Below, one piece after another: positions 1 through 28,908 of a DNA stretch of 39,660 bases. The position numbers and the translations under genes are program-made. Source of the DNA: Nitrospirota bacterium (GTDB taxonomy: Bacteria > Nitrospirota > UBA9217); contig JAGVOT010000130.1 of assembly GCA_020052615.1 (NCBI GenBank), forward strand, positions 1-39,660, written 5' to 3'. The notes below the pieces were generated by a model, which did no database searches, was not told the origin of the DNA, and saw only the letters and a program-made list of their open reading frames with translations. Position 1 is the stretch's first letter. Each line of letters opens with the position of its first letter.

Positions 1-846
1 CCTCCTCCGCCTCCGCCAAAGCCGAATTCCCAGCAAGCGGTCCCTTCAGACATATTCGATATCATTCAGGAGGCGCCGGCGCATACTGCCGTTCGTGCGA
101 CCCAGACGACACCCGCCGCTCCCCGGATGGAGAAGGCCGAGGAGGAGACCTTCGAGGTCGAGCCGGAGTTTGAAGTCGAGCCTGAAGTAGAATCAGAGCA
201 ACCCGCTCCGGCGAAGCCGCAACCGGCCCCCGCTGTATTAAAGACATCGGAGGCCGAGGACGCGGAATGGGCCAGGTTGGCGGAAGAGACCGAAGTTGAA
301 GTTGAACCGGAGCCTATGTCCGGACAAACAGCCGCGGTCCCTGATGCATTCGACACGGACCAGCTGTTCGGCCGGGAACCTTCCCCTGCACCGCAGGCAA
401 GTGCGGCCGAGATCCCTTCGTTCGAATTTGGAGCTCCGCTGTCAACGGAAGAAGAAAAGGCCCTTCCTGTCGGTCAAAAAGCGATGGACGAAATGCGAGA
501 AGGGCTTGGGCTTGCCGAGGAAGACGCCTCCGCCAGGCATCCCGATATTGTGAGCTTTGAATCCCTCGATGTGGCATCGAGGGCCTCCCATGAAGATTAC
601 GCCTATACGCCGCCCGCAGCCAAGGTCCCGGCAGCGCAAACGGCAGCAGCACCGGCTCCCGAACAGCCTTTCCGCACATTGTCCCGTGCTCCGGAAGTAT
701 CCGATGAAATGCTCAAGGGTGTTGCCCGGGAAGCCATTGAGAAGGCTGTACGAGAGGTCCTGGAGCGGGTAGCGTGGGAGGTCATTCCCGACCTGGCAGA
801 ACGTCTGATCCGTGAAGAGATCGAGCGGCTCAAAGCGGAAAAATAG
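1..846 (+). CDS. C-terminal part of an acidic linker-rich cytoplasmic protein
   Basis: The reading frame is open from the first base, so the N-terminus lies outside the window; 281 residues are visible. Residues 1-230 are low complexity, rich in Pro, Ala and Glu, with repeated E-V-E-P-E type units, typical of a flexible linker. The last 50 residues form an amphipathic helical tail containing VAREAIEKAV and ERVAWEVIPDLAERLIREEI. I recall similar tails at the C-terminus of receiver-domain or zinc-ribbon proteins in Deltaproteobacteria and Nitrospirota; that is recollection and not a search result. No signal peptide, membrane segment or catalytic motif is visible in this part. A terminator follows at 940. 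The function cannot be stated without the missing N-terminal domain. Confidence 0.75.
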   Translation, partial: PPPPPPKPNSQQAVPSDIFDIIQEAPAHTAVRATQTTPAAPRMEKAEEETFEVEPEFEVEPEVESEQPAPAKPQPAPAVLKTSEAEDAEWARLAEETEVEVEPEPMSGQTAAVPDAFDTDQLFGREPSPAPQASAAEIPSFEFGAPLSTEEEKALPVGQKAMDEMREGLGLAEEDASARHPDIVSFESLDVASRASHEDYAYTPPAAKVPAAQTAAAPAPEQPFRTLSRAPEVSDEMLKGVAREAIEKAVREVLERVAWEVIPDLAERLIREEIERLKAEK

Positions 847-939
847 AAAATCGTTCACAGGTATATTTCAGGCACCAAAAGACACGCTCAACATAAACAG
901 GGATCAGTTGTTGGCGTTTTGACGATCGGCATTCAGCCT

Positions 940-963
940 GAGGGGACACGCTCCCCTCTTTTT
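940..963 (+). terminator. Rho-independent terminator after the first gene
   Basis: A 7-bp GC-rich stem (GAGGGGA 940-946, TCCCCTC 952-958) with a 5-base loop is followed by five T. It ends the transcript of the partial gene and separates it from valS. The rest of the spacer 847-1074 shows a TTGACA at 1037-1042 without a convincing -10 partner, and no T-box features were seen. Confidence 0.85.
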
Positions 964-1074
964 ATTGTCTCGCCGGTCCCGGCTCGTCATGAGCACAGCA
1001 GATCCGGTGTTCTTCTCTTCTGTAATTCCTACACCTTTGACAACGTGATTAATTGAATATGAAGGAGCTGGTGG

Positions 1075-3771
1075 ATGTCCGTGAATGAGCTTTCAAAATC
1101 CTACGATCCAAAGTCGGTCGAAGAGACCTGGTACGACTTCTGGATCAATAAGAAATATTTTCATGCCGATGAGAACGCGGTTCACCAGCATTTCTCCATC
1201 GTGATCCCGCCTCCCAATGTCACCGGACAGCTCCACATCGGCCATGCCTTGAACTCCACGCTTCAGGACATCCTCGCCCGGTGGATGCGCATGTCCGGGA
1301 GGAATGTGCTCTGGGTGCCGGGAACGGATCACGCGGGCATTGCTACGCAGAACGTCGTGGAGCGCATGCTTGCAAAAGAGAACATCGACCGCCATGCAAT
1401 GGGGCGGGAGAAGTTCATCGAAAAGGTCTGGGAGTGGAAGAAGGAATACGGCGGGAAGATCATCGGTCAGCTCAAGCGGCTCGGCGCTTCCTGCGACTGG
1501 GACCGCGAGCGGTTCACCATGGACGAGGGGTTGTCGAAGGCCGTCCGGGAGGTCTTTGTCCGGCTCCACGAGGAAGGGCTCATCTACCGCGGCGAACGGC
1601 TGATCAACTGGTGCCCCCGCTGCCACACGGCGCTTTCCGACATCGAAGTGGAGCACGAGGACGAAAAGGGCAAGCTCTATCACATTTCCTATCCGCTGAG
1701 CCATGACCATTCGGTCCGTCTTACCGTTGCCACGACACGGCCCGAGACCATGCTGGGCGATACGGCAGTGGCCGTGCACCCCTTGGACCCCCGCTACAAG
1801 GACCTGATCGGCAAGACCGTAGATCTCCCGCTTACGAACAGAAAGATCCCTGTCGTAGGCGACTCGATCCTTGTTGACCTCGAGTTCGGCACCGGGGCCG
1901 TGAAGGTCACCCCTGCCCACGATTTCAACGATTATGAAGCTGGCTTGCGGCAGGACCCTGAGCTCCTGCGGATAAAAATGCTGAGCGACAAGGCCGAGAT
2001 ACTGGCCGATATCCCGGACGTGCTTCCCGAGGTGCTCCACCAGATCGCGGGCAAGCCCGCCAAAAAGGCGCGGGGCATGATCGTGGAGCTGCTCAAGGGG
2101 CAGGGATATCTCGGCAGGACGGACGATCACAGCCATTCCATCGGCAAGTGCTATCGATGCAAGACCGTTGTGGAGCCCTATCTTTCTCCCCAATGGTTCG
2201 TAAAGACGCAGCCCCTTGCGGAACCTGCCATCAAGGCTGTCGAGGACGGCACGATCGCATTCTACCCCAAAGGCTGGGAGAACACCTACTTCGACTGGAT
2301 GCGGAACATCAAGGACTGGTGCATCTCGCGCCAGATCTGGTGGGGCCACCGCATCCCGGCATGGTACTGCGACGACTGCGCCGCCATCACTGTCAGCCGC
2401 ACCGATGCCGTCACTTGCTCGGCTTGCGGGAGCACAAACATCCGTCAGGAGACCGATGTGCTCGACACGTGGTTCTCGTCCGCCCTCTGGCCATTTTCCA
2501 CGCTCGGCTGGCCGGAGAAGACAAAGGAACTCGCGACCTATTACCCCACGTCCGTGCTTGTTACCAGCTTCGACATCATCTTTTTCTGGGTGGCGCGCAT
2601 GATCATGATGGGCCTCCACTTCATGAAGGAGGCGCCGTTCAAGGATGTCTATATCCACGCGCTGGTCCGCGACGCCGAAGGGCAGAAGATGAGCAAGTCC
2701 AAGGGGAATGTCATCGACCCGCTGGAGATGACCGAACAATACGGCACTGACGCGTTCCGGTTCACCCTCACGGCCTTTGCCGCCCAGGGCCGCGACATCA
2801 AGATGTCGCCAGAACGCATCGAGGGCTATCGGAACTTCGCGAACAAGATATGGAACGCAAGTCGCTTTGTGATGATGAACATCGAGGAAGGGTTCGTCCC
2901 GAACAGCGCAATCGTGATGCGGCAGTCGTCTCTGGCGGACCGCTGGATCGTATCGCGCCTCAACACGGTCGCGCAGGAGGTCCAGGGGGCCCTGCAGGAG
3001 TACCGGTTCAACGACGCGGCATCGACGCTTTACCAGTTCATCTGGCATGAGTACTGCGATTGGTACGTCGAGCTTTCCAAGCCCGCATTGAAGGACGAGG
3101 ATCCCGGCAGGAAAAAGGCGGCCCAGACGACGCTGGTCATGACGCTGGAAACGACACTGCGCATGCTCCATCCGATCATGCCGTTCATTACCGAAGAGAT
3201 CTGGCAGAAGCTTCCTAAAGAGATCAGGGGCGAGGCAGAGTCGATCATGATGTCGCCTTTTCCGAAGTCGGACGGCACATATATCGACGCGGTCGTTGAA
3301 CAGACCATGCGCCTACCGATGGATGCGATCCTTGCGATCAGGAACATCCGCGGTGAGATGAACATATCTCCACGGGAGAAGGTCAAGGCGGCCATCCGGG
3401 CAGAGAATACGGATGTCATCAAGAACTTTGAACAGACAGCGGGATATGTGACGGCATTGTCGGGATTGTCGAACTTCACGGTCGCCCTTGACACGGCAAA
3501 GCCCGAGGGGTCGTCAACGGGGACGATCCGCTGCGCCGAGATCTATGTTTCCTCGGACCAGACCATCGACAAAGGCGCAGAGCGCGATCGGCTGATGAAA
3601 GAGATCGCCAAGACGTCCAAGGATATCGACATGTTCTCCAAGAAGCTGTCGAACAAGAGCTTCGTGGATAAGGCGCCGAAAGCCGTTGTTGAGAAGGATA
3701 CCGCGCGGCTCGAGGAGCTGAAGGCGATGCGCGAGAAGCTGGAGCAGAGCCTCGCGACGCTGGGTGCGTGA
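1075..3771 (+). CDS. valS: Valine--tRNA ligase
   Basis: Class I aminoacyl-tRNA synthetase that charges tRNA-Val in the cytoplasm. The 898-residue length is normal for ValS. The HIGH motif is at residues 54-57, inside PPPNVTGQLHIGHAL, and KMSKS is at 538-542. The CP1 editing domain contains the ATTRPETMLGDTAVAVHP stretch. The anticodon-binding region follows KMSKS, and the last 60-65 residues form the heptad-rich coiled-coil arm typical of ValS (ERDRLMKEIAK to the end). The ATG at 1075 has a Shine-Dalgarno AAGGAG at 1062-1067. It begins a close run of plus-strand genes (nadC 67 bases downstream, then birA and coaX). Confidence 0.98.
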   Translation: MSVNELSKSYDPKSVEETWYDFWINKKYFHADENAVHQHFSIVIPPPNVTGQLHIGHALNSTLQDILARWMRMSGRNVLWVPGTDHAGIATQNVVERMLAKENIDRHAMGREKFIEKVWEWKKEYGGKIIGQLKRLGASCDWDRERFTMDEGLSKAVREVFVRLHEEGLIYRGERLINWCPRCHTALSDIEVEHEDEKGKLYHISYPLSHDHSVRLTVATTRPETMLGDTAVAVHPLDPRYKDLIGKTVDLPLTNRKIPVVGDSILVDLEFGTGAVKVTPAHDFNDYEAGLRQDPELLRIKMLSDKAEILADIPDVLPEVLHQIAGKPAKKARGMIVELLKGQGYLGRTDDHSHSIGKCYRCKTVVEPYLSPQWFVKTQPLAEPAIKAVEDGTIAFYPKGWENTYFDWMRNIKDWCISRQIWWGHRIPAWYCDDCAAITVSRTDAVTCSACGSTNIRQETDVLDTWFSSALWPFSTLGWPEKTKELATYYPTSVLVTSFDIIFFWVARMIMMGLHFMKEAPFKDVYIHALVRDAEGQKMSKSKGNVIDPLEMTEQYGTDAFRFTLTAFAAQGRDIKMSPERIEGYRNFANKIWNASRFVMMNIEEGFVPNSAIVMRQSSLADRWIVSRLNTVAQEVQGALQEYRFNDAASTLYQFIWHEYCDWYVELSKPALKDEDPGRKKAAQTTLVMTLETTLRMLHPIMPFITEEIWQKLPKEIRGEAESIMMSPFPKSDGTYIDAVVEQTMRLPMDAILAIRNIRGEMNISPREKVKAAIRAENTDVIKNFEQTAGYVTALSGLSNFTVALDTAKPEGSSTGTIRCAEIYVSSDQTIDKGAERDRLMKEIAKTSKDIDMFSKKLSNKSFVDKAPKAVVEKDTARLEELKAMREKLEQSLATLGA

Positions 3772-23859: not shown

Positions 23860-25581
23860 ATGCTCAAACTCACCCCGCTTAAGATCGTCGGCTTGTACAT
23901 TGCTCTCAGCGTGCTGTGGATATTCAGCTCCGACATCGCCCTGGAGATGATCGCGGCGGACACGCGGGTCTATACGGTCCTGAGCATCGCGAAGGGCTGG
24001 TTCTTCATCGCGGTCACGGCCACGCTGCTGTTCGGCCTCATTCGCCGCTATGCAGCGGAGCGCGACGAGACCGAGAAGAAGCTCTGCGAATCCGAACGGC
24101 AGTGCCGTTTCGTGGTGGACCACGCCAATGACGGCATCCTGATCGCCCAGGACGGCATGCTGCGCTTCGTGAACCCCCGCATGGCGGAGATCACGGGATA
24201 TACGGAGGAGGAGCTCCTTGCCCGTCCGTTCGTCGATTTTCTGCACCCCGAGGACCGGCAAATGGTCTTCGACCGGCATATGCAGCGGATGCGCGGCGAA
24301 CTCGACCACGCGTTTTCCTATACCTTCCGGCTGTTGGCGAAAAATGGCCGCACTGTCTGGGTCGAGACCCGGGGCGCGGTCAGCACCTGGAACGGGAAGC
24401 CGGCGACGATCAATTTCCTCTCCGACATCACGGATCGGAAGCGGGCAACGGAGGAACTTATGCGCTCCGAGAAGCTCCGGTCGGTGGGTGTCCTGGCCGG
24501 CGGCATCGCCCACGACTTCAACAATATCCTGACCGCGATCCTGGCGAACGTCTCGTTCGCGCGAACGCAGCTCGGGGCCGGGAGCACTGCGGCGGACCGG
24601 TTGATGGAAGCCGAAAAGGCGTCGCTTCGCGCCCGCGAGCTGACGAGACAGCTGCTTACCTTCTCCCGGGGCGGCGCGCCGGTGCGCAAGACCATCATCC
24701 TCGCCGGGCTCATCCGCGAGAGCGCGACCCTGGCGCTGCGCGGCAGCGGGACCGCCTGCGAGTTCGCGATAGCCGGGGACCTCTGGCCCATCGAGGCCGA
24801 CGAAGGCCAGATCGGCCAGGTGATCAACAATCTGGTGATCAACGCGAGCCATGCCATGGCGCGAGGCGGCACCGTCAGGGTGGCTGCCGGCAACGTCGTT
24901 GTCAGCCGGCAGGAAAACCTTGCTATTGCCGACGGAAGGTATGTGATGCTCTCCGTGTCGGACAGGGGCGCCGGCATCCCGGAGGAGCACCGCTCCCGCA
25001 TCTTCGACCCCTATTTCACCACAAAGCAGGAGGGCAGCGGCCTCGGCCTGGCGGTGTGCTATTCCATCGTGCTGAACCACGGCGGCATCATCGCCGTGGA
25101 TTCAAAGCTCGGCGCCGGCTCCCTGTTCACGGTCTATCTTCCCGCAACGGACAAGGCCGTTGTCCCGGGGCAGGAGGACGGGCCCGAACTCATACCCGGA
25201 AGCGGCAGGGTCCTTGTCATGGACGATGAGGCGATGGTGCGGGACGTCGCCGGCGAGATCATCCGGTCCCTCGGCTACGAGGTCAGCGCCGCGAAGGACG
25301 GCAGGGAGGCAGTAGAGCTTTACCGTCGCTCGATGCAGGAGGGCAGGCCTTTCGACGTCCTGATCATGGACCTGACGGTGCAGGGAGGCATGGGCGGCCG
25401 GGACGCGATCCGCGAACTGATCTCGCTCGACCCCAACGTGCGGGCCATTGTCTCGAGCGGCTACCACAACGACCCGATCATGGCGCACTACCGCGAGTAC
25501 GGGTTCCAGGACGTCATCGCGAAGCCCTATGACGCCGCATCGCTGAGCAAAGCGCTCGCCCGGATCCTCGGCCGGTCCTGA
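23860..25581 (+). CDS. Membrane-bound hybrid histidine kinase (PAS-HisKA-HATPase-REC)
   Basis: A 573-residue hybrid sensor. Two membrane helices (about 9-30 and 43-62) bracket a very short outer loop. A PAS domain spans about 80-205 (FVVDHANDGILIAQDG, VNPRMAEITGYTEEELL). HisKA has His218 in GGIAHDFNNILTAI, the HWE/NtrB-like form with DFNN. The ATPase domain has INNLVINASHAM, DRGAGIPEEH and GSGLGLAVCYSIV. A C-terminal receiver (about 445-573) has Asp504 as acceptor in LIMDLTVQGGMGG. Phosphorelay to an unknown partner is likely. The signal is probably sensed by the cytoplasmic PAS domain. No target gene is adjacent. Confidence 0.94.
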   Translation: MLKLTPLKIVGLYIALSVLWIFSSDIALEMIAADTRVYTVLSIAKGWFFIAVTATLLFGLIRRYAAERDETEKKLCESERQCRFVVDHANDGILIAQDGMLRFVNPRMAEITGYTEEELLARPFVDFLHPEDRQMVFDRHMQRMRGELDHAFSYTFRLLAKNGRTVWVETRGAVSTWNGKPATINFLSDITDRKRATEELMRSEKLRSVGVLAGGIAHDFNNILTAILANVSFARTQLGAGSTAADRLMEAEKASLRARELTRQLLTFSRGGAPVRKTIILAGLIRESATLALRGSGTACEFAIAGDLWPIEADEGQIGQVINNLVINASHAMARGGTVRVAAGNVVVSRQENLAIADGRYVMLSVSDRGAGIPEEHRSRIFDPYFTTKQEGSGLGLAVCYSIVLNHGGIIAVDSKLGAGSLFTVYLPATDKAVVPGQEDGPELIPGSGRVLVMDDEAMVRDVAGEIIRSLGYEVSAAKDGREAVELYRRSMQEGRPFDVLIMDLTVQGGMGGRDAIRELISLDPNVRAIVSSGYHNDPIMAHYREYGFQDVIAKPYDAASLSKALARILGRS

Positions 25582-25791
25582 CCAGCAGCACGATCCTGGA
25601 TTCTCCGTAAGCAAGAAGTAATTCCTGAAGCTGAGCGGCGCGCACGATTAAGCCGGATTGCAGTCTACGCCATGAACACCGCAACGGTGCCACTGGATTC
25701 AATTGAACGCTACGAAGTATATTCCGCTTCGCTTAAATCCAGCGCGTGCATTATTCCTGCAGGCTGGTAAAGAACAGAATTTTGTGTTTTA

Positions 25792-25809
25792 CTAGCCGCA
25801 CGCGGCTAG
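25792..25809. repeat. Short perfect hairpin before the cassette
   Basis: CTAGCCG and CGGCTAG enclose CACG. There is no T run after it. It sits 11 bases before the cassette boundary core at 25820. The wider spacer 25582-25844 shows no gene. Confidence 0.4.
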
Positions 25810-25820
25810 ACATACACTGG

Positions 25821-26314
25821 TTAGATTTTACGAGGAACTAATATATGATATGGTTTATAGCTGAACTTCTTATTGAAATGCGTATTGAAAAAGAACCGCG
25901 CAATGTCGTTCACGTTAATTCCCACCTAATTCGCGCAAAAACGAATGCCGATGCCAAACGAAAAGCAAAAGAGATCGGAAAGCAAAGCTCTAATTCTTAC
26001 AAGAATACCGATGGAAAGAACATTAAGGTGCGATTTCGAGGAATTAGAGATTTATTTGAACTGCCCGAAGGGATTGAAGACGGTGCTGAAATCCTGTGGG
26101 AAGAGCATATTGGACTTACAGAGAGCAAAATCAAGTCATGGCTACGGCCTACTTCAAAGAAAAGCAAATCTCGCTGTAATATTCCCAACTATATGCCTGA
26201 AAGCGTAATGAAGGACCTTGAGAAGGCGGGCTTTGGTCGCAAAGAACTGATGCACAGATAAATCTAACAAGTCGTTCGAGTCCCGCGCGCTGCGGCGCGG
26301 GGCTCAACTCGTCG
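25821..26314 (+). mobile_element. Integron-type gene cassette (DUF4288 gene plus attC)
   Basis: The left boundary is a core site GTTAGAT (25820-25826) and the right boundary is inside GTTAATT (26314-26320), cutting after the G as integron integrases do. The cassette's own attC begins with ATCTAAC (26262-26268), the exact complement of the left core. This is the diagnostic relation expected when the cassette is circularised. It holds one short gene in the usual orientation with a minimal 5' leader. No integrase gene is in the window. Confidence 0.75.
25845..26261 (+). CDS. DUF4288-like hypothetical protein, cassette-borne
   Basis: A 138-residue protein, A+T-rich compared with its neighbours. 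The N-terminus (MIWFIAELLIEMRIEKE) and the region AKTNADAKRKAKEIGKQ followed by VRFRGIRDLFEL resemble DUF4288 proteins; that is recognition by eye. The C-terminus is basic (RPTSKKSKSRCNIPNYMPE). No signal peptide or catalytic motif is apparent; function unknown. The stop codon lies directly against the attC site, as is common in integron cassettes. Confidence 0.72.
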   Translation: MIWFIAELLIEMRIEKEPRNVVHVNSHLIRAKTNADAKRKAKEIGKQSSNSYKNTDGKNIKVRFRGIRDLFELPEGIEDGAEILWEEHIGLTESKIKSWLRPTSKKSKSRCNIPNYMPESVMKDLEKAGFGRKELMHR

Positions 26315-26320
26315 TTAATT
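26262..26320 (+). mobile_element. attC recombination site
   Basis: A 59-base imperfect palindrome. The outer cores are ATCTAAC and GTTAATT. The inner pair is GTTCGAG (26274-26280) against CTCAAC (26303-26308), which pair only if one C is left out, giving the extrahelical base typical of attC. The terminal hairpin CCCGCGC/GCGCGGG has a six-base loop. All elements of a folded attC are present and the size is the minimal type. Confidence 0.82.
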
Positions 26321-26323
26321 CCT

Positions 26324-26719
26324 ATGAAAAAGACATCCTTGATTATGATCATCGTTATTGGGTGCGTGCTCGGACTGCTGGCGTATTGTGAGCACACAGA
26401 AAATCCCACCTCATATTTCGCGACTTACAACGAGGCAAAGTCATCGGGCATAATGGACCGTGGTTGGATTCCAACGTATATTCCGCAATCTTCAACTGAA
26501 ATCAGAGAAACACATAGCATTGATACCAATCGGGTTCAAATGACCTTTAAATATTTCGTCGGAGATACAAAAGAATTAGAAAAGAACTGCACCACACAGA
26601 AGATGTCAGAGAACTTAACTCAGTATAAATGCAGCTACTTTGAGTCTGATGTCATTGTTGAGCTATTGTCCAACGGCTCCGGCAAACTAGCAAGCCAGCC
26701 CAAAGAAAAGAAGAATTAG
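26324..26719 (+). CDS. Small exported or lipoprotein-like protein of unknown function, cassette-borne
   Basis: A 131-residue protein beginning four bases after the attC site. The N-terminus has KK, a hydrophobic stretch SLIMIIVIGCVLGLLAYC and a Cys at residue 22, so it is either a lipoprotein (LAYC as a loose lipobox) or membrane-anchored. The outer part has SYFATYNEAKSSGIMDRGWIPTYIP, which I recall from small proteins often found in integron arrays, and two further Cys that could form a disulfide. Composition is A+T-rich. The precise function is unknown. Confidence 0.75.
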   Translation: MKKTSLIMIIVIGCVLGLLAYCEHTENPTSYFATYNEAKSSGIMDRGWIPTYIPQSSTEIRETHSIDTNRVQMTFKYFVGDTKELEKNCTTQKMSENLTQYKCSYFESDVIVELLSNGSGKLASQPKEKKN

Positions 26720-26799
26720 CCAACGTCTCGACATCGACTCGCCAAAAAGCGGCGAGTCAGCGCCGCGTCATACCACTTGCGTCTTTAAATAAGTTATGC
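26718..26799 (+). mobile_element. Possible second, degenerate attC-like site
   Basis: AGCCAAC (26718-26724) just after the stop and GTTATGC (26793-26799) resemble attC cores. A stem GACTCGCC/GGCGAGTC sits between. The inner arm pair with an extrahelical base is not evident and the outer cores are only partly complementary, so it may be decayed or recombined. Confidence 0.4.
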
Positions 26800-26884
26800 G
26801 TCATGTCCAGCCGCCGTATCCGGCTCTGGAAATTCGATCAAGCGGTGCTTGAACTTTTCATGTAACGTCACACAGGGAGATCTT

Positions 26885-27442
26885 ATGAGAAGGGTTGTTT
26901 TTGCGATCAATATCACCACTGACGGGTACTGCAACCACACGGACATGATTGCCGACGACGCGGTGCACGAGTACTTCACCAGGCTGCTGCGCAATGCGAA
27001 TCTCCTCCTGTTCGGCCGGAAAACATATCAACTCATGGTACCCTATTGGCCCGAAATCGCCAAAAACCAATCTGAGGATGAAGCAACCAATGAGTTCGCC
27101 CGCGTGTTCGACTCTCTCGACAAGGTCGTATTCTCCACGACATTGAAACAGGTCGAAGGAAAGAATACGAGGATCGTGCGTGCCAACCTTGCGGAAGAAG
27201 TGCTCGCGCTGAAGCAGCAGCCCGGAAAGGACATTTGCATAGGCAGTCTGAGCATTGCGTCCCAGCTTTCGGAGCGCGGTTTGATCGACGAGTATCGTTT
27301 CGTGGTCCATCCGGTTGTTGCCGGAAAAGGACCGCGGTTATTCGAAACCGTGAAGCCCCAGGACAGTCTCCGGCTTGATTTTATTGGTTTGGAAACCTTT
27401 CAATCCGGCGTCGTTGCCCTTCACTACAGAAAGCATACGTGA
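26885..27442 (+). CDS. Dihydrofolate reductase-like (RibD C-terminal) family protein
   Basis: A 185-residue RibD_C / DHFR-fold protein. [17 protein letters not shown] corresponds to the first strand and substrate loop; [42 protein letters not shown], the nucleotide-binding glycine block [35 protein letters not shown], and a terminal strand are in the family order. It probably binds NADPH; the substrate is unknown. GGGAG precedes the ATG at 26885. Such genes are frequent integron passengers, but no attC follows it here, so membership in the cassette run is unproven. Composition is intermediate. Confidence 0.87.
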
Positions 27443-27590
27443 GCCGAAACGCAAACGAAGATAGGTTGTGATCAAGAATTTACCACGACGCACCGGCTAG
27501 CCGGTCTCAAGCCGACCCCGCCCACAGCGCCCGGGTGCAGTCATCAAGTCTGCCTGAGGTCATCAATATGAATTTTGCACCGTTCAGCCG

Positions 27591-28734: not shown

Positions 28735-28908
28735 CGTGAACAGTATCTGAAAACAAGGAAGTCAGGGAAGAGGAGTGAGATTCTCCCGCTGCCCCGCAGC
28801 CGTGAAGGGAACGAAAGCCCGATACCAAGCCACTGTCATGCGCAAGAGCATGATGGGAAGGCGGGCGAGTAGGATGATGCCCTAAGCCGGAAGACCTATC
28901 CAGCACCA
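28735..28908 (+). promoter_or_regulatory. Cobalamin riboswitch
   Basis: Conserved parts in order: GGGAAG with the GGAGTGAGATTCTCC stem (28765-28786 region), CTGCCCCGCAGCCGTGA, CCACTGTCATG, GGGAAGGCGGGCGAGTAGGATGATGCC, and the B12-box-like AGCCGGAAGACCTATC (28885-28900). This fits the adenosylcobalamin class closely. No intrinsic terminator is obvious before the gene, whose ribosome-binding site GAGGGAGGAG is at 28923-28932, so control is probably translational. It would lower expression of the next gene when B12 is plentiful. Confidence 0.92.

Follow-up and report, generated by a model that had tools for sequence, protein, structure and literature searches.

The question raised by this Nitrospirota locus is how integron cassettes come to stand where the surrounding DNA encodes no integrase. 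A search of the contig that carries them returned no integron integrase in its 39,660 nt (the window, i.e., the whole stretch analyzed), in agreement with an earlier note made from the letters alone, which had read the segment as an orphan cassette in a cluster of attC sites lacking an integrase (CALIN). The cassette, the attC that bounds it, and the lack of a nearby intI all stand up to analysis, but the array is headed by an attI site, in which the cassette sits, and the genome encodes integrases elsewhere. We think it likely that the contents of such attI-headed arrays without intI have been changed by IntI made elsewhere in the genome or earlier in the lineage. In what follows, G000 is the genome of the window, G001 and G002 are other species of the same genus, G006 belongs to another genus, and C-numbers denote contigs. 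The comparison genomes are drafts, and at least G001 and G006 were assembled from metagenomes; an integrase gene could therefore be missing from them.

The first cassette spans 25821 to 26314 on the forward strand, from the attI crossover to the attC1 crossover. A GTTAGAT starting at 25820 and an ATCTAAC starting at 26262 are exact complements over 7 of 7 bases, as the earlier note had reported, and this complementarity of the left junction to R'' is what is expected of a cassette that was once a circle. The intact site, attC1 (26262–26320, forward strand), has R'' and R' boxes with AAC and GTT together with paired L boxes, and the extrahelical base that had been claimed for it is readable by eye in L'' (GTT[C]GAG/CTCAAC). 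The family attC covariance model, which includes attC1 and in which 7 of 11 pairs covary across 13 sites, calls it at 26260 to 26322 with 74.2 bits. A sequence-only model built without attC1 or near-identical copies ranks 26720 to 26768 (E = 3e-6) and 26261 to 26320 (E = 1e-4) as the top two sites of the window, attC1 thus coming second, with the next at E = 2.3; these E-values are rough, and the attC and attI models derive from the same Nitrospirota family. Similar sites occur in related genomes as well: copies of attC1 lie in its own genome at C46 (98% identity) and C44 (92%) and are also present in other genera. An Rfam scan of the window gave no attC match, the only matches being a tRNA and a cobalamin riboswitch (28764–28897, 72 bits), and a custom attC grammar scan gave none because its R' requirement is stricter.

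The cargo of cassette 1 is a gene for a 138-residue protein (25845–26261, forward strand) that matches DUF4288, as had been proposed (PF14119, 63.6 bits, E = 2e-17 against Pfam), and that has no match among PDB sequences. Cassette 2 carries an ORF for 131 residues (26324–26719, forward strand); its product, described earlier as a small exported protein, has a hydrophobic N-terminal stretch, and no Pfam family passes the cut-off for it. A second attC, attC2 (26712–26775, forward strand, 25.8 bits), aligns with the attC sites of the arrays on C2, C73, and G001:C15 and is decayed: GTC replaces GTT in R' and the outer stem is broken. Reading its R' box instead as GTTATGC at 26792 was dropped, since the homologous attC sites end at an earlier position. 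IntegronFinder 2 requires at least two attC sites by default to call a CALIN, and the window offers one intact and one decayed; by that program's definitions the array is CALIN-like.

To the left of the cassette, a search with the window revealed a conserved block (25745–25829) that recurs elsewhere in the same genome and in relatives. The element is ≈80 bp long (25743–25822, forward strand), its conservation stops at the core GTT, and its crossover would be G^TT at 25820 to 25822; the window copy scores 99.7 bits with model R1, which was built with it, and 84 bits with model R3. In G001:C15, G002:C81, and G006:C256, the same element adjoins a divergent intI gene with a LexA-type box and is followed by a cassette array in G006:C256 and G001:C15, the G002:C81 contig ending at that point. 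Given this position between intI and the first cassette in relatives, sequence comparison identifies the block as attI. The earlier note had overlooked both this attI and the decayed attC2. The window itself lacks the intI that would make a complete integron, and a hybrid histidine kinase gene stands upstream of attI; the locus is an integrase-less array composed of an attI, an intact DUF4288 cassette with a canonical attC, and a second cassette with a decayed attC. Whether the block is instead the attI of the C74 or C101 integron of its own genome was considered and rejected, as other sequences stand at those places.

Two overlapping inverted repeats distinguish the element from a plain core site. 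In the outer repeat (GGCTGGTAAAG...TTTTACTAGCC, 25762–25797), both partners vary in 11 of 15 pairs among 30 attI sites (covariation score 0.223 versus 0.143 shuffled); in the core-proximal palindrome (CTAGCCG...CGGCTAG, 25792–25809), which overlaps it, this holds for 6 of 7 pairs (0.434 versus 0.196). We read the repeats (25762–25809) as paired, putative integrase-binding repeats, and a folded strand may be an alternative role for them. In alignment A5 of these 30 sites, the repeats covary as if three integrase-binding repeats evolve together. The same repeats lend some plausibility to the idea that the block moves with cassettes as a promoter, an attenuator, or the end of a transposon and is no recombination site, a reading we consider very improbable: a promoter scan of the block gave no match above chance, conservation ends at G^TT, and the sequence next to the core, GATAATCACTGG^TT, is similar to GATAATAACTTG^TT, the attI core of the family's other integron class. 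The transposon-end version was dropped once the block had been seen in the intI-attI position.

The cassette could also have entered an arbitrary genomic site of the attG type, the adjoining block being a coincidence or a hot spot. Insertion by recombination of attC with attG is described in the literature, and the window locus also holds the histidine kinase gene (23860–25581, between the glycogen phosphorylase gene and attI), which is unrelated and is missing there in G001 and G004; its absence from that place indicates that the locus takes up other inserts too. This reading is hardly credible, however, for a block whose conservation reaches as far as the crossover at about 40 sites, always with the cassette on the same side, and that takes the place of attI beside intI in three integrons. 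The four variable bases at which attI core and first-attC R'' are compared agree at 2.54 of 4 positions over 28 loci versus 1.44 in shuffled pairings, and as none of 20,000 shuffles reached this value, the match is not due to chance.

The attI element is dispersed in its Nitrospirota family. Of the family's 14 genomes, 10 have matches to its covariance model, which gives a single weak match among 134 sampled genomes of the phylum outside the family; a pattern scan of one genome per species, ≈85,000 species in all, matches only Nitrospirota records (Nitrospiria bacterium Hainich-H41-bin277-1 and Nitrospirae bacterium GWC2_56_14). Eight copies are found in the window's own genome and 14 in the sister species G001, and 42 copies were examined in context. 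Two of the G002 copies, on C396 and C81, have a stretch of 100 bases in common without a mismatch and probably represent a single locus divided between two contigs. A same-strand attC follows 33 of the 37 copies with more than 1.5 kb downstream, and intI adjoins just 3 of the 39 with at least 1.3 kb upstream; by this count, intI is absent beside nearly all copies. None of the eight in the window's genome adjoins intI in the sequence available, which for C73 extends only 302 bp upstream. The arrays that these sites head are short, no cassette was found at more than one locus, and the mutated attI core of C110 indicates that some copies are dead. A comparison of cassettes between loci yielded one protein pair at 45% identity and no shared DNA longer than 100 bp.

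A search of the genome for integrases and further attC sites, as the earlier note had advised, brought to light the attC1 copies and attC2 described above and integrase genes on other contigs. Two contigs, C74 and C101, have TIGR02249 matches above the curated cut-off; the copies on C53 and C34 are broken or partial. The attI-adjoining integrases of G001 and G002 are 72% identical to each other, and this subtype was not found in the window's own genome; the C101 integrase shares 57% identity with that subtype and has a frameshift in its N-terminal extension, and the C74 integrase is intact, is 47% identical, and belongs to an integron class that uses another attI, the one with the similar core-proximal sequence GATAATAACTTG^TT. 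With no matching subtype in the genome, a frame-shifted C101 gene, and a C74 class with a different attI, the sites of the window may be inactive now. C74 carries a complete two-cassette integron of this other class (positions 254–3031 of the stretch examined, with an intact intI, an attI near 1717, and two attC sites). On C101 and C53, intI has a LexA-type box and a conserved neighbor gene stands in the place of attI; the C53 intI gene is broken.

How the arrays differ is best seen where sister species carry the same locus. Orthologous intI-less attI pairs with unrelated cassettes are found at four loci of G000 and G001 (C50/C1, C36/C57, C110/C78, and C69/C18, the last being the window). The clearest pair is C50/C1, recognizable as one locus from kilobases of flanking sequence on either side, most blocks of which are 88 to 93% identical; neither species has intI there. 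Homology there is near perfect through attI to ATACTGGTTAG and is lost at the attI core; the cassette regions that follow, which measure ≈0.4 kb and 3.1 kb in the two species, are unrelated, and near-perfect homology resumes at GTTAG.CTTACACAATGCG, the GTT of the last attC. This layout recurs, with less clear-cut edges, at C36/C57, which adjoins hisS, and at C110/C78. The window locus lies between genes for glycogen phosphorylase and a hydrolase. Each of the three congeneric species compared has cassettes there, and these differ among G000, G001:C18, and G002:C232; as the attI types of G000 and G001 differ here, this pair is weaker evidence than C50/C1. In genomes of other genera, neither the C50 locus nor the window locus contains a detectable attI, and in G004 the place of the hisS array is taken by only about 60 bp. 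At hisS, C50, and C18, the flanks in other genera are too diverged to place the edges of an empty site to the base. One locus empty of attI (G004:C101, 1530–1600 of the stretch examined) reads ACATTTGCTGTATAGCCAATTGGCTGATATTGGTTG, like a shortened attI, and this could be chance.

These observations bear directly on the possibility that the arrays are fossils, i.e., complete integrons that lost intI, with cassettes differing by differential loss only, whether or not IntI mediated it, and none inserted at an intI-less attI. Loss of intI does account for at least two copies: in G000:C2 and G003:C66, the last 17 to 34 codons of intI remain ≈170 bp upstream of attI, which shows that these two arose by intI deletion, and in G000:C2 a 290-bp stretch made up of attI and the sequence preceding it has its counterpart in G001:C15, where intI is present. 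The shortness of the arrays, the lack of any cassette found at more than one locus, and the fact that cassette differences could reflect differential loss from a longer array are all compatible with this history. As an account of all the arrays, we nonetheless consider it rather unlikely. At C50/C1 and C110/C78, the upstream kilobases are collinear in both species with no trace of intI, so that loss of intI probably preceded the divergence of the cassettes and the attI of the common ancestor most likely stood there without intI; moreover, even excision could not leave the IntI-type edges of C50/C1 without IntI. Given such an ancestor, these edges argue for site-specific recombination with an integrase supplied from elsewhere.

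Action of IntI in trans at these arrays is thus, on present sequence evidence, the most likely explanation, and the cassette differences between sister species suggest that the docking sites are served by an integrase whose gene lies elsewhere in the genome. Cassette entry at attI, exit between sites, and cutting at G^TT are established for integrons. By analogy, IntI expressed from another locus would bind attI and folded attC and would cut at G^TT in both, so that cassettes could enter at attI and leave between sites. Any assignment of the IntI that acted, like any continuing activity of the sites, is putative. We further propose, tentatively and as a possibility that we would not favor at present, a distributed integron in which one or a few integrases act on numerous attI sites scattered over one chromosome; the 80-bp attI with its covarying repeats would spread to new loci as a small unit, and in each species of this Nitrospirota family a network of cassette docks would take the place of a single array.

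Several known systems resemble these arrays in part. CALINs (PMC9024848) share with the window arrays attC-bounded cassettes and the lack of a nearby intI; here, instead, an identifiable attI is found at many loci per genome and cassettes differ at orthologous sites. Two reports (PMC9668308, PMC12444791) name mobilization in trans as a possibility for CALINs. Xanthomonas CALINs likewise occupy conserved chromosomal positions without intI, and the accessible text on them (PMC12444791) makes no mention of attI at those CALINs, unlike here. In comparison with a complete sedentary chromosomal integron, the window shares the layout of attI, attC, and cassettes seen at G001:C15 and G006:C256, where intI is present, whereas here intI is missing and many short arrays replace one long array. 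Delta-attI-type cassettes of mobile integrons (PMC12901181) are alike in placing attI sequence away from the usual intI side, but there a partial attI replaces attC at the cassette end, in contrast to the complete attI at the head of the arrays described here. A literature search that covered only a minority of subscription papers returned no description of a genome with numerous intI-less attI sites, nor of such sites that are orthologous yet differ in their cassettes, which is weak evidence of absence. Arrays that look like CALINs prove here to be headed by attI, and their orthologous loci provide evidence of recombination without a cis-encoded integrase. As attI has not been searched for outside class 1, known CALINs may hide attI sites likewise, including in other phyla.

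Finally, a 642-bp block with a RibD_C-type gene (window 26822–27464) is 95% identical to a block of G006:C256, from another genus. It stands at the far end of a cassette array in both genomes, without an attC of its own, and was probably shared by recent horizontal transfer.
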